DNA of 23,256 nucleotides from Ectocarpus siliculosus (lineage: Eukaryota; Sar; Phaeophyceae; Ectocarpales; Ectocarpaceae), in contig FN649746.1 in assembly GCA_000310025.1 (NCBI GenBank), positions 969,235-992,490 of the forward strand. The letters are read 5' to 3'. Position numbers and translations under genes: made by a program. The first letter of the stretch is position 1; every line of letters begins with the position of its first letter. The notes under the pieces are model-generated. The model saw only the letters and a program-made list of their open reading frames with translations, was not told the origin of the DNA and did no database searches. Shown here piece by piece: positions 3,001 to 16,500 of this stretch.

Positions 3001-6000
3001 GGCGGCGTGCTGTAGCGTACAATACGTGGACAGCAAACCGCACGTACATACTTGTACAACTACGACGCTGCGTGCGTCATGAGCTTTGCATTATTTTGTT
3101 GTCTACGCGGGTAGACGCGGGGCCGCGGAAGGCCCACTGTAAAAAAAAACGCTGCGTGACGCTTGACTAGCATGGCATGCAATACGCGGATGCGGATGGC
3201 AAAACGCATGTGCACAGAACAAACGCCTGCTTTGCCTACAGGTATCAATCATCTCCGTGTGTCCACGCGGGGGAGACGAGGAGCCACAGACGGCAGGCCC
3301 CCTTCTCTTGCCTGGGACCAGATGCCGTCCGCTCCCACAAGCACGTCGGCGTGCACCTCCCCCCCGTCCTTCAGCTTCACCGTTACCCCCCTGGATGCAA
3401 ACAACAAATTCATACGGTGACCGTCGGCGTGAGGTTGGTATGCGTACGGCGGGCGGGGGGGGGGGGAAGAAAACCACGTGGGGGAAAAACGAAAAAAACA
3501 CTGCCATGCCGAGGAAAATGCTTCCCTGCAACAACTGACTTTTTTTCCTTTTTCGCTAGAACACTACGTTCGCAAGGGTCTTCCCGTACTGGCCTCAGTG
3601 TCCTTTGTTATGACGGAAGGCGCCTCCTTTTACTCAAACGGGTTACGGTGCGGAATACCCGCGTACGGGGGTCGGAATCAGTCACGTCGCCCCCTTCCTC
3701 AACACGGAACAAAAAAAAAAAAAACACCGCCAACCAACGACTTCCAAGCATACCCGTCAGTGTTACGGTACGGAATACCCGCGTACGGGGGTCGGACCCA
3801 GACACGCCGCCCCCCCCTTTTCTTCTTCACTTCACAACGAACCCATTTTCTCTCCACGCACAGAGGAAGGGTCCAGGATAAATTAGCAACGAATCCAGAG
3901 CACTAGCACACGAACAAAAAAACTGTCAACAAGACTGACCGCTACCGAGCATACCCGTCAGTGATACGGTACGGCAATTCCCACGTACCCGTCAGTGTTT
4001 TCGAAGCCGACGACCGTCTGGCTGTTGAACACAACCCCTTCCCCGATGTCCTCCATCAGGACAGCCTGCAAACAAACAAAACAGAGAGGACAAACACGTG
4101 TCGCGGCGTGGTAAGTGGCGTGTTGGTTAGGCGTTGTTGGTATGCTCATGTTGTTGTTGATATCTTGTCCTTGTAGTATCTGTTGTTGTGCTGTTGTTAT
4201 TGTTGCCGTTGTCGTCAGCATTGTTAAAAAAAAGGAATGAGAAAAAACATTGCGACCTTTACGCGAGTGCCTTCCAGATACTAGTCCAACCGACATGGCC
4301 ACACGAGAAGGAAGTAAAAGAGGACAAGAGGGGCAAGAAAAAGAAGTCACCGCAGTCCCAGGTGAGACGTTATGAGTCACGAGCAACCGTGTATACAACT
4401 CTGATGGGAAAACGCCTCTTCTCATGAACCCTAGCCCTATAAATAGGATTTTTACGACGCCTCCCTCGCCTCCTTCAGGTTGCGTAAGATAGCCCACCCC
4501 CTGGACCGATTTTCAAAGCTCTATTACTCCACGACCAAGAGAGTGGCGCAATCAAACCATGATTCGTTTTCGGGAAGCTCTCGAAAATTGCCGCAATCAA
4601 ACGATTATTCGTTTTCGGAAAGCTCTCGATGACGCCTTTCCAACGCAGCCACGTTACTAGTATCGCTCCAGAGTAATAATCGAGGTCTGAAAATTCGGCC
4701 TAGGGAGGTGCGGTGTCTTAACCAACCCACAACAGCACGCTGTCGGGACAATCCTACATAGTCTATGCGTCGCGACACCCGGTCAACTTATGGCTTTATC
4801 CATCCAGCGCCGCCTCGTCCTACCTGCAGATCCGGCCTGTCGATAACTCCCGTGTACGGCAAGGAGTACATGTCGGCCATCTGAGTGATGGCGTCGAACT
4901 TGCAGTACCTGAACGCGGGGTACGTACGTGCAAGAAAATGTTACCATCATCAAGCCAGAAAAAGGTACGCCATGATTAAGCAGAGGTGGCGTCGAACTTT
5001 CAGTACCTGAACGAGGTACATATGTACGAGAAAACGTTGCCAACATCAAGCCAGAAAAAGGTACATCATGATGAAGCTATCGTGGCGTCGAACTTGCAGT
5101 ACCTGAACGAGGTACATACATACGAGCAACGTTGCCAACATCAGGCCAGAAAAAGGTACATCATGATGAAGCTATCGTGGCGTCGAACTTGCAGTGCCTG
5201 AACGAGGTACACATGAGAAATCGTTACCAACATCAGGCCAGCAAAAAGGTACACCATGATTAAGCAATGGTGGCGTCGAAGTTGCAGTACCTGAACGAGC
5301 TACATACAAGATACGTTATGTAGCAACACCAGGCCAGAACACGGCACTTCCACAATGAAGCAATGCCTTGAGTCACCGCGTCCAACTCGCCGTGTCGGAG
5401 AGAGGTCCACAGGAACGCCAGCAACACCGGCCAGAAAAATTCACCATGATCAAGAAATGTCTCACACGGTACTGATATGGCGCCCAACTCGAACAAAAAT
5501 GCACGCGCAAATTGACAACAGACAAGACACCCAAACGCACCACTCCGTCCGGATGCCGTCCTTGATGCCGTTCGTGCGGATCCCGGTGAAGGTGAAGTAC
5601 TCCATTATTTTGTTGAAGAACGTCGAGTCGATGGCCTTGATCGTGGACAGGGCGTTGGACGCGAGCTGGATGGGGCCTCCGAATCTCCGGAAGGCGTTCG
5701 TCTTTTCGATCACCTTAACCTGCACGACCAAGAGTTTTCGAGGACGGGGGCGCCGCCGTGATTAGTCGGGGGGGGCGGGGGGGGGCAATAGCCTTCGCGA
5801 GAATATTTCGGGCACGGAGGTGCCGCCGTGATTAGTTGGGGGGGGGAGGGGGGGGGGGTGTACTCATAGTCGTCCATGCCGTAGGGAGAGGCGATTTCTT
5901 ACTGTCGGAGCCTCCCGTCGGTAGCGGGACACATGTTTTTTGTACTAGAAATAGACTGGTACTTTGGCTGCCGTCGGTGACGGGACACGTTTGAAAAGGG

Positions 6001-9000
6001 GCACAGGAGGGGCACACATCACCTGCGATCTTGGCAACACACAGCAGACACAGCATACACAGCACACAGCACATAGCACACAGAGAAGGCGGAGGAGTGT
6101 GTGGGACACGGAAGCAACACGCCCTCGCTGCTGCTGCTGCTTCTGCTTTGCCGCAAGCACACAGACAGCTACTGCTCTGCTGCTGCTGCTGTATGTAGCT
6201 GTAGGAAAGAAGCGGCTTGATGATGCATGATGGTCAGACGCAAACAAACAATGTATGCAAACGGTTGGCGCACTGACGCAGTGGCACCATAGTATACTCT
6301 AGCAACTGCTGCTGTTCTTTTGTGTATGGTGGTCTGGCGTGGTGCTGAACAACCGGGTGAGACAGAGATCAGGCAGATCAGAGATGGTATCTGATGCTCG
6401 ATTTTTGCCGTTGAGAATTCATTCATGTGGACAGCAGCAGCAGCAGCAGCAGCAGCAGAATTACAGGCGAGATCTTTCACTGCACACATCATCACAGGCG
6501 CGGATCTATCTCAAGGCGGCACCACCTCTCTCCACATGTTGGTTGCTCGAATCACCGCTGTGGTGCTACCGCTGGCCTCCTGTTGTCAATTGAGAACGAT
6601 GGCGTGCTTTGTGTTGAAACGCTACTACAGCAGTGATAGATAGACAGGCACATGAAGACGTTTTTTTTTTACTAGTGCTGCTTGCGCGCTGCAAAACAGC
6701 ACCCGAGAGTGGACAAAAGGGGACAGTCATTCAGAGCGCAGACACATCCAGGTCAGTTCCTGCTTATTCTGCATCATGTGCGGCAACCCACTTGTGAATC
6801 GACGTCGTGGTCGTCGAGAGACTAGACTTTCTTCCTTTTTTTTTCTTCTTTTTTTTCCAGGCGCCGCCAGTAAAAAATCGCCCGTAGTCGTTAGACCATT
6901 TACCTCGCATCCCTACAAAGCCGGGACGGAGCACGCCGGGTTCTCACCGGACCAGGCTCTCACATCACCAAGCGCGAAGCGCCGTGAGGTATTTGGCGAG
7001 TCGCATGAAGGGTGAGCTGCATCCTGCTAAGGGTGTTCGGCATCTTGTGCTTACTTCCTTGCGTACGGATGACAGCTGCGTATGACTTAATTTATTTTCT
7101 GGTGCTTTCACTTCCGGAGACAGTTGTAAGCACTGTGTAACTGCCTCGAGGATGCTTGATCATTTTAACACAACGTGGTGCGATCATCCCCCTTGCGCGG
7201 AGTGAGGGTTCTCGACCCCGCACAACATGATCTACTCGACCACCATTACGGTTACCGCCAAAAAAAAAAACAGAGGTAAAAAAAAACCAGGTAACCTGGT
7301 TGCCGAGTTCACGAAGTGAACTGGCTTGTTTTACAACGTCGTTGCCAAGCGACGAAAACCCAATCCCGATGGCAAACACCAAGGGGGGGGGGGGGAGTAG
7401 CCTTCGCGACAATATTTCGGGCACGGGGGTGCCGCCGTGACTAGTTGGGGGGGGGAGGGAGCCAGTACCCTTCGCGAGGATACATCTTGGTTTTAGTAAG
7501 GGGTTAAGGGTTAGGGATACCACACACCCCTGTCTATTTCATAGACGAAACATAAAATCCTTCAGGGGGAGGGCGTCCTGTGCGCGGGCGTGAGGGTTCG
7601 CATGGACCCACGTGCGTTTTTGCGCGGACGGCCCGTCTTCCACTGCCTTTTTAAGAAAGCTTAGGTAAATCACGGAGAGACTACCGTTCGATACAATACC
7701 CCAGCAGTAGTCGAAGGAAGAGGTCTGTCAAAGTCTTTGCAGTGGGTGGGAGAATAAAACGCTGGATACTTGGGGCATATCTTGAGTCTACTCAAAGCCT
7801 ACGCACACTGAATGAATATCACAAAAACACTTGCATATGCACTTGTATAAATTTTACATGAGGTACAAAACATTAGCTCGTTCACTGGTACTGGTACCCA
7901 CGCGGGTGTGGGAAGAACTTCGCTTCATTAGTTTGGCTTGCCTCTGAGCGCGTGCGCGCACACGAAGCGGGTATCGTGGGCGTGATTTATAAAAAATGAC
8001 ATTGAAATCGCGCTAACCGGCTGGAGTAATGGGAACGCGGCATTCCCATAGCGGGACAAAAAAAAAAACGCGAACACACGCCTCTTGTAGCATCACTTCG
8101 GACTGTTTCACGCATGTACTTGTAGTTCTGCTGCTGCTCAGCAGAAAAAAACAAACGAACTCCGCTGCTGATGTGTGCACATCCGAGACTAAGCCCCACA
8201 CGTGCGGCAGCGGCAGACGCGTGGCGATTTTGCTGTGTCCGCTACCGCAGGTGGCATACGACATCAACACCCCTGGGCCGATTTCCAAAGCTCGCGTACT
8301 CCACGACGAAGAGGATGCCGCGAATAGAAAGACAAGGTTTCGGAAAAGTAAAAGTTCTCGACGGGACGGTTCTACCTCTTTCTGCTGTGGAGCAATCAAG
8401 ATCGGTCCAGGGGGTGTGATATCTTGAGTCATCTATGGTAGTTCGGACCCAGCGCACTCGGGAAGGGGAGCGCACCACCGCCGCTGCTCTTGTCTGAAAT
8501 GTGCTGCGGCGTTTACTTTTTTGTCGGGAGGATCGGAGACGACACATTTCAGCAAGGAGATGGCAGGTTCTCGGTTTTATGCGAGTTTTTTTTGCTTCGG
8601 TTCTTGTAGCGTAGCCCCACGAGCATGCCAGCGACTGCAACCCCCTCAGAGAACCCGTGTCCTGCAAATAGTCCCCACTCCCACCCCCTGCAAAGGGCAC
8701 AGCACACGAAGAGTACCGTAGGACACGGAGAATACGACACCCCCTTGGGACGTTTTTCAAAGCCCGTGTACTTTGCAGCAAACACAGCAGCGACGACGCC
8801 GAAAAGGGCGGTGTTCGTCGATACCTTTTCGACAAATGCATCAGTTGGCTGCTGTTCCATACTCCTCCGCTTCGTCGTGCATGAGTCCAGCTTAACAACT
8901 CGGTCGTCCAGGGGGTGTCAACCATCTATCTCATGCAACCTACGTCATGTCTTTCGGTGCTGTGGGTCAGAATGCTGCGGCTGAGGCGACTGCTGCTGTT

Positions 9001-13511: not shown

Positions 13512-16500
13512 CTAGCCTTCCATCACCAGCTTTCCGTCGACGTCTGAGCTGACAACCCCGTAGATCAGCCACTTCCCTGTGTCCGGCGGGCGTCGTTGAC
13601 GCTCGAGGGTCCACAGAAACCTCTTCTGCCTTCCGTCGGAGGCAACCACGCTCACCACCTGAGGGGGGCACCGCATTCACACATAACCGGGGGGGGGGTT
13701 GCATGCCTTAGCGGTTAGACCATTAACCACGAGAAGACGGAGCGTTGTTCCCACAGGACCGATAACGGGGGGGGGGGGGTGTACTCATAGTCGTGCATGC
13801 CGTAGTCGTTAGACCATTTACCTCGCATCCCTACAAAGCCGGGACGGAGCACGCCGGGTTCTCACCGGACCAGGCTCTCACATCACCAAGCGCGAAGCGC
13901 CGTGAGGTATTTGGCGAGTCGCATGAAGGGTGAGCTGCATCCTGCTAAGGGTGTTCGGCATCTTGTGCTTACTTCCTTGCGTACGGATGACAGCTGCGTA
14001 TGACTTAATTTATTTTCTGGTGCTTTCACTTCCAGAGACAGTTGTAAGCACGGTGTAACTGCCTCGAGGACGCTTGACCATTTTAACACAACGTGGTGCG
14101 ATCATCCCCCGTTGCGCGGAGTAAGGGTTCTCGACCCCGCACAACATGATCTACTCGACCACCATTATGGTTACCGCAAAAAAAAGAAAAGAGGTAAAAC
14201 AAACACACGGTAACCTGGTTGCCGAGTTCACGAAGTGAATTGGCTTGTTTTACAACGTCGATGCCAAGCGACGAACACCCAATCCCGATGGCAAACACCG
14301 AGGGGGGGGCTTGTTTTACAACGTCGTTGCCAAGCGACGAAAACCCAACCCCGATGACCAACACCGGGGGGGGGGGCGTACTCTTATGTTTTGCTTGCCT
14401 TAGCGGTTAGACTATTGACCACGCGTCCTCGAGAGGACGGAGCATTGTTCCCACAGGTCCGATCACCGATGGTCAATCGTCCCTTCCTAGTTTGCCAAAG
14501 GTGGCTCAAAAATGTCTTCCCTAGTCTGTCTATCCTAACGATATCCCTTCCCGCCTTTTCAAACCACTGCCTACTCCCCAGTACAGCTACCGTCCCCTCC
14601 TCTCTATTCCATGCCTCAAACATCTCCCTGTACGTCCCTTGTATTTTTCCCAGCTCAGTCATGTACACTTCCCTCTCCTCTTCGTACCACGGACATTCCG
14701 CGACTACATGAACACGGTCTTCGCATTCGAAACCGCAATCACATTTGAACTTGTCGTCTTCGTCGTCTGCCGTCCTATGTCTTCGTCGACGTTCTCTAAG
14801 GCCTATGCCCCCGGTCCTGAATTTGACCTTAAGCTTTGTCCCTGCATCCATTGGTCCAAGTAGGTAATCCTTGAACCCTATTCCTTCTTTCAACATTCCG
14901 TACACTTCTAGACCCTCCTTATCCTTGGTTTCTTTCCTTAGATTCTGTTCTTCTCTCTCGGCACAAGCTACAGATATCTTCTCCTTGAACCCCTGTAGAC
15001 CCTCCGCTTCCAGCGTTTCATCTTCGTCGATGTGTAACCCCTTCCATACGTCCTCTACAACCTTGACCCATTCCGTGGGTTGTCTACCCCTATTTTTGGT
15101 TGCCCACTTCGCCTCCCATACTATTCTCGGCAACCTCTCCTCTCCCATCCCGCACATGCGATACTGCTATGTCAGCTTCCTTGCGTCTCTTCCCGACCGT
15201 AGGGATTGGATCCCCAATTCTGCCCTTATGGCCGCATTACTTGTGCGCTTGGAGCATCCTAGGATGATTTTCGCTGCTTTCATCTGCGCCGCCTCGAGTT
15301 CTTTCACTACCTTCTTATTTCCTTCCCATACTTCTCCGGCGTACTCTAGCGGCGGTACGATTACGCTCTTCAAAACCGCCAATTTGATGCGTGTATCGAG
15401 GTGCCGGTTTGCGAGTATTGGGTGCATCTTCCCTGCTCGTGCTTTGCCCTTTTCCGCTACCTTGGACATGTGTGCATTCCACGAGCAGTCGTTTGCGATC
15501 TCTACTCCGAGGTATTTGTACTGGTCCACTACTGCAATCTCCTCGATCCCCCACTTCCATCTATGTTCTACTGGTTCCTCCCTGTCCTCGTTGCATACCA
15601 TGACGGCACTCTTCTTAACGTTGGCAGACAATCTCCATTTATCAGTAAACTTCTTCGCCGCGTCAATTTGTAGTTGCAGTCCCTCAGGGGTGTCCGACAT
15701 ACCAACAAAATCATCCGCAAACAGAATTCCTGACACCGAAGTTTCCGTGTCCCCTACTTTTACTCCCTTCCGGACTGCCTCTACGACTTCCAACAGATCG
15801 TTGATGAACACCTGGAACAATGTTGGGGACAGCGTGCAACCTTGTGGGACCCCCTGCTCAATGTCGAAGAACTTAGACAATTCTCCGTCTAGCATGACCG
15901 GGGGAGGGGGGGGGGTCTTGATGGTGCACGTGCGCTATTCGCTGAAAACGTCTGCTGAACGACACGCTTGCTGCCAGCTGCGCTGAAAACGTCTCCACAG
16001 CAGCCCGGCTCCGGCTCGGCTCGAAGTCCTCCGCACCGGCTTCGAATATAAGCGAAAATCTCACAAACCGTGGCGAAAAATGTTTGACTCTCTCTGCCTC
16101 GGTTACGGCGCAACTCGCGCACAAACACAGCAGTTCGAGGCCGGAAGTAAAGTTTTCCCAAGGGCTTGATGGGAGTAAACATGCACACGACGTGCCGGCT
16201 AGCGCCAGAATCCTGTGCCGGTGACACATACTCTCCACCCATTTTTCCCGCGGCGTCAACGCCGATGTAGTTCCCTCGATTTCGATGAGAACGGGAGTCC
16301 TTGAGAGAGCTACAATAAACAAGGCGTCGTGGTTCTCATGGGGGGCAACTGTAGGTAGTCCGCACCTGCGTTGCAAGGCGGTCGCCCACCATGCTCATCG
16401 GCTCCAACGTGAAGGACTGACAGCCTACGGTTGCCCCAAAGACCTGTGCCAATTGAGCCGGGTGGCAACGTGGGTGAAAAGGAACACAGAGGATACAAGC

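Follow-up and report, generated by a model that had tools for sequence, protein, structure and literature searches.

In a 23,256-nucleotide stretch of the Ectocarpus siliculosus genome (hereafter the window), retroelement pieces follow one another on the minus strand with a run of C at each junction, which raises the question of how such a string is built and what part the C-runs play in it. A first-pass annotation had described the string as five head-to-tail pieces ending in poly-C, and reading the sequence confirmed its junctions and C-runs (Table 1). The order and the C-run junctions stand, but the number of pieces does not. What had been taken for a 5′ fragment of a dispersed repeat (14366-14310) followed by a full copy (copy B) is one element, a SINE with its own ~57-base 5′ monomer and, after a C-run, a ~520-base body; the chain is therefore the result of three insertions rather than five, namely a 5′-truncated LINE, a SINE and a LINE-like 3′ fragment. 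The window holds 29 runs of at least seven C or G, compared with a mean of 3.1 in mononucleotide shuffles. In the 189.5 Mb of the genome, the two strands together have 27,920 C-runs of at least 10 bases. At this density of roughly one in 13.6 kb of strand, C-runs at all junctions of the chain are far from what chance would give.

Table 1. Features of the chain (15915-13689) and of a second string in the window, in window coordinates
Feature	Position	Strand	Basis
C10-T-C5 run, target C-run ahead of the LINE	15900-15915	minus	sequence read
5′-truncated LINE, reverse transcriptase to 3′ end	14377-15899	minus	RVT_1 E 1.1e-16 on 15898-15167; genomic copies
C11, LINE tail and SINE landing site	14366-14376	minus	sequence read
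Extra 5′ monomer of the SINE	14310-14365	minus	monomer, C-run, body order in 14 of 20 sampled copies
C8 joining SINE 5′ monomer to body	14302-14309	minus	same as the family's internal junction
SINE body, 3′ end homologous to LINE 3′ end	13780-14301	minus	40 best of 2332 candidates, ~97% identity
C13, SINE tail and landing site of the fragment	13767-13779	minus	sequence read
GTTAT, left copy of a likely target-site duplication (with the preceding C-run)	13762-13766	minus	sequence read
LINE-like 3′ fragment	13699-13761	minus	~84% to LINE 3′ end
C10, tail of the fragment	13689-13698	minus	sequence read
GGTTAT, right copy of the likely duplication	13683-13688	minus	sequence read; one G off the left copy
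Second string: three element 3′ tails, each with a C-rich end and then the same duplication	175-340	minus	sequence read

The LINE piece in the window encodes the later portion of a reverse transcriptase. A longer genomic copy matches RVT_1 at E 5e-34, with L1 ORF2 (E 6e-27) and R2 (E 1.1e-15) among the best of the solved relatives. The element shows the traits of a non-LTR retrotransposon: a LINE-type reverse transcriptase, 5′-truncated copies and duplicated target sites. Ahead of the reverse transcriptase, one copy (L001) has a weak match to the PF14529 endonuclease (E 0.0016; 18.8 bits, under the curated cut-off of 27.4). Copies at 95-97% identity occur across the genome (40 scored of 4448 candidates), and their truncation points and neighbours vary from locus to locus. 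We also observed related LINE 3′ ends, ~76-81% like the LINE and likewise carrying C-run tails, at L002:8556-8702, L006:2905-3084, L009:2133-2209 and L025:1667-1754 (in the element's direction), which may be older or separate subfamilies.

The second element is ~600 bases long and has its 3′ end in common with the LINE. We call it a SINE loosely, for a short, LINE-dependent element; under the strict definition, by a Pol III promoter or a tRNA-, 5S- or 7SL-derived head, the ~600-base repeat falls outside the class. ARAGORN found no tRNA in it, and Rfam returned no tRNA-, 5S- or 7SL-type head over 13700-14420 at E up to 5, nor any family at the gathering cut-off. The single Rfam match at E up to 5, to mir-1913, was rejected as chance (18.1 bits vs a cut-off of 105). 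A family described from Ectocarpus, RTEX-N1_Ec32, has ~600 bases, more than 6000 copies and a 3′ end like that of the RTE-X LINEs RTEX-1_Ec32 and RTEX-2_Ec32, as given in a passage of PMC12477816. Two primers published for E. siliculosus ubiquitin (PMC2546422) each have a single exact match in the genome analysed; they face one another and span 101 bases, the size of the published product. The size of ~600 bases, the 3′ end shared with a LINE and the occurrence in Ectocarpus all recur in our SINE, and the LINE and the SINE are probably this RTEX-1/2 and RTEX-N1_Ec32 pair, a match made by description from that passage (PMC12477816).

Among 20 SINE copies, drawn from the 40 matches (of 2332 candidates) that scored best against the window copy and thus biased to full-length copies, 14 have one or more complete additional ~57-base monomers ahead of the body, with a C-run at the joint. 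Counting the body's own, three complete monomers were present in 11 copies, two in 2 and one only in 4, while 1 copy has three monomers with the first cut by N and 2 have one and a part of another. The element starts at a monomer boundary in 17 of 19 readable copies, 11 of which may simply be full length. Such starts, the rule in L030-L049 for instance, look as if G-runs of the cDNA had joined C-runs of the target.

The first-pass annotation had claimed poly-C tails for these elements and had named poly-A or other tails on most copies as the result that would count against it. Both LINE and SINE end in poly-C genome-wide. The LINE 3′ word GGTCTAACCGCTAAGGCATGCA occurs exactly 418 times in the genome, and we sampled the first 20 occurrences (100 listed) in list order, regardless of downstream text; they lie on contigs C1 and C2 and, as exact matches, represent young copies. 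A run of at least six C lies within the 20 bp after 18 of these 20 ends, the two without a tail being L010 and L014. Ten more LINE ends in L001-L009 all have at least nine C within 20 bases; these loci were picked from the 40 scored LINE candidates, several of them for being chains, and are left out of the 5′ junction counts below. Genome-wide there are 1833 occurrences of the SINE tail word GCACGACTATGAGTAC, of which 1086 continue exactly as ACCCCCC. All 41 occurrences on C1 were read: 23 continue as ACCCCCC and, among the 18 that do not, 14 have at least six C within 20 bp, which gives 37 poly-C ends out of 41 (exceptions L096, L099, L100 and L102). Seen from the side of the C-runs, at least 2101 of the 27,920 runs of at least 10 bases (7.5%) are such tails, with the exact word GAGTACN before the run. 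A 3′ end in a simple repeat rather than poly-A, as at the 18 LINE ends, is a trait of RTE-X elements, and the LINE is a probable member of this type, a label taken by resemblance from PMC12477816.

The same letter stands in front of the elements. The first-pass annotation had proposed comparing the bases ahead of each element with random sites, and of 36 readable 5′ junctions, 29 had a run of at least six C in the 20 bp ahead of the element, vs 8 of 337 background windows, which come from the flanks of the same loci and may hold other repeats (Fisher p 2e-29). The junctions were drawn from 39 sampled elements (16 LINE, 20 SINE and 3 further elements in the same loci), with 3 lost to N; LINE starts are BLAST starts, and SINE starts were refined by motif. 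By class, the C-run was found at 9 of 14 LINE, 17 of 19 SINE and 3 of 3 other junctions, the LINE figure being the cleaner one as SINE 5′ ends hold C's of their own. Runs of A, G or T in the same 20-bp windows were found at none of the 36 junctions. Because 5 of the 14 readable LINE junctions have no run of six C (C5 at L012 and L017, no C-run at L014, L019 and L022), landing in C-runs is a strong preference and no absolute rule.

Target-site duplications place the C-run at the site of entry. With C-runs collapsed and flanks re-paired 1000 times, the text shared by the two flanks from the C-run onwards amounted to 59 non-C letters over 30 insertions (mean 24.7 and maximum 47 after re-pairing); 30 of 42 rows entered this test, 12 being dropped for N or for lack of a C5 on either side. 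At least two non-C letters are shared at 16 of the 30 insertions (re-pairing mean 3.7, maximum 10) and at least four at 2 of 30 (mean 0.34, maximum 3), and most individual duplications are therefore weak; the LINE-like fragment of the window scores only 1. Clear duplications are C5-GTGCCATAA-C4 at L046 and C7-GCACT-C4 at L031, and the best cases give a duplication length of some 14-18 bases.

These duplications bear on the possibility that the C-runs arise during or after insertion, by slippage or untemplated bases, with no preference for a target. C-runs do slip readily, and the SINE 5′ monomers bring C-runs of their own. However, in the clear duplications (L046, L031, L024, L025 and L027) the C-run lies ahead of other target bases, which means that it was there before the element, and we regard an origin of the runs at or after insertion as very unlikely.

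The family thus combines a poly-C tail, a C-run target, a duplication from the C-run onwards and a single orientation, and we consider it very likely that a poly-C-tailed LINE and its dependent SINE insert mainly into C-runs of the same strand by target-primed reverse transcription. The endonuclease of the element would nick the G-rich strand of a C-run, and the freed G-run end would pair with the C-tail of the RNA and prime cDNA synthesis. A cut of the second strand some 14-18 bases downstream would then leave duplications starting in the C-run, such as those seen. The new copy, again C-ended, would be a landing site itself, an arrangement that the chains display, and repeated landing would give head-to-tail strings, as the tail C-run sits on the sense strand only. 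The RNA tail may originate as a copy of the genomic C-run, with slippage adding to its length. A broader reading, in which a LINE with an AP-endonuclease and its SINE find their sites mainly through the pairing of C-tail and G-run, and each insertion adds a C-run so that targets seed themselves and strings grow head to tail, is tentative, and we rate its chances a little below even.

Chains like that of the window recur. An element tail, followed by C7, up to 30 bases and a SINE start, was found 66 times genome-wide (21 with a LINE-type and 45 with a SINE-type tail), compared with none for a reversed-pattern control; tail-to-tail order was not found anywhere in the genome, and elements falling anywhere would give, as a rough estimate, ~0.3 head-to-tail joints. 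The first-pass annotation had proposed the tail of one element as the landing site of the next. Serial landing in C-runs agrees with our data, but tails seem to be nothing special. As a census we read 40 C-runs in list order, of which 5 proved to be element tails and 2 stood immediately upstream of an element. Chains were present at 10 of 40 sampled element loci (LINE loci L013, L017, L018, L022, L025 and L029; SINE loci L033, L035, L039 and L049), about as frequent as the 7 of 40 in the census predicts (Fisher p 0.59); both sets of classes were read by eye, and census matches labelled fam3 were ignored as homopolymer matches. As no special liking for tails is needed to explain this frequency, any same-strand C-run seems to serve as a landing site.

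Serial insertion into C-runs is supported by duplications that start in the C-run and lie between neighbouring elements, as it predicts. At two chain junctions, L025 (C7-AAGTGTC) and L035 (C-run-GCTGC), the text that separates the elements is found again downstream of the second element. In the window, the LINE-like fragment has C13-GTTAT before it and C10-GGTTAT after it, one letter apart. The best case is the second string of the window, in which a ~10-base duplication, (T/TC/TTC)GCCTTGTGG, stands after three successive tails, at 322-313, 259-250 and 184-175, and these tails are separate insertions at one C-run. Either neighbour may be the older one, as entry into the tail of an old copy and entry into the C-run in front of that copy leave the same text.

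A reverse transcriptase that leaves one RNA and restarts on the C-tail of the next would join several elements in one event and yield the same order, a tail and then the next 5′ end. Such template jumping could account for the 17 of 66 junctions that have only a C-run between the elements (an optional T or TC aside). However, the duplications at L025, at L035 and in the second string have no place in a jump, and the frequency of chains does not exceed what the C-run census predicts, which makes template jumping an improbable source of the strings. Still more improbable is a spread of the strings as ready-made composite units or tandem arrays, copied either at the DNA level or through a single read-through RNA, and it explains at most some loci. 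It would fit contig C85, where three junctions of near-same text follow at a spacing of 545 bases, contig C112, with two identical ones, and a junction text of one kind that occurs on C77, C112 and C2. Against it, the texts of 62 of the 66 junctions differ, and 49 distinct texts remain once C-runs are collapsed, and LINE truncation points and neighbours vary between loci. Composite units or arrays are thus limited to a minority of loci. The evenly spaced junctions at C85:18975-20111 (545 bases) and C112:81255-81898 (602 bases) are likely SINE tandem arrays made at the DNA level.

The first-pass annotation had also raised the possibility that the C-runs are collapse points of the assembly. As judged from the assembly sequence, run lengths are unsafe, but such faults do not explain why the runs are present at hundreds of separate copies. 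In 5 of 39 sampled elements, the tail is followed by N within 80 bases. Assembly gaps lie directly behind C-run tails at L003, L006, L009, L011, L036, L037, L040 and L042, and the text after C-runs looks degraded at L022, L033 and L090.

In this model alga, tail and target agree at most insertions of a family of thousands of copies. Human L1 has a poly-A tail and uses a complementary T-rich homopolymer at the target as primer; a homopolymer serves as tail and target in both systems, but the tail is poly-C and the target strand G-rich in Ectocarpus. Non-LTR elements that target microsatellites, reportedly described by Kojima and Fujiwara in 2004, are said to form Tx1/R1-like and R2-like groups and to use longer repeat units. 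They too enter simple repeats, and the Ectocarpus family differs from them by its homopolymer and by a probable RTE-X element. The closest known system comes from the same genus, as RTEX-N1_Ec32, with RTEX-1_Ec32 and RTEX-2_Ec32, is a ~600-base non-autonomous family with an RTE-X-like 3′ end according to the passage mentioned above (PMC12477816). The body text of that paper, as far as it was available, mentions no poly-C tail and no C-run target, and its Figure 1C, which shows terminal motifs, or its supplements may note the tail (PMC12477816).

LINEs of the RTE and RTEX clades with dependent SINEs are well known to share a 3′ end in a simple repeat, as stated in a section of PMC3747384. The Ectocarpus LINE and SINE likewise share such an end in place of poly-A (compare the parts of PMC3747384 and PMC13295347 on these pairs). 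Green-algal RTEX tails are listed there as (CA)n, (CAA)n, (CCAT)n, (ACAATG)n and (CTTGTAA)n, compared with (C)n in the Ectocarpus family (excerpts of PMC3747384 and PMC13295347). Copies of Bov-B are rarely flanked by tail-like targets according to a passage of PMC13295347, whereas most insertions of the Ectocarpus family are. The same passage reports no consensus on the function of the 3′ simple repeats of LINEs and SINEs, pairing with the target being one idea (PMC13295347). Among the titles from our literature search there was no poly-C-tailed LINE or SINE with a C-run target, a search in which 'Poly(C)' with brackets could not be entered, so that absence is not shown. In the literature covered, much of it as excerpts, LINE-SINE pairs with shared simple-repeat 3′ ends and microsatellite targeting are both known, and none of it describes a poly-C tail with a matching C-run target. 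A tail of one letter makes the pairing idea directly testable by altering the tail. The poly-C family also accounts for some of the C-runs, nested repeats and gaps in the assembly of this genome, and if our reading is true, each new copy can offer a further landing site, so that copies line up head to tail.

Other repeats in the window adjoin C-runs as well. A further SINE copy (copy A, 6882-7391, minus strand) starts behind a C13, has no 3′ tail and ends in ...GACTACGGG at ~6880. A third repeat, with the core ACTAGTCACGGCGGCACCCCCGTGCCCGAAATATTGTCGCGAAGGCTACT, occupies 5740-5858 and 7396-7464 on the minus strand in units parted by C-runs, one stretch following a SINE tail fragment (5890-5859) and another standing directly before SINE copy A.
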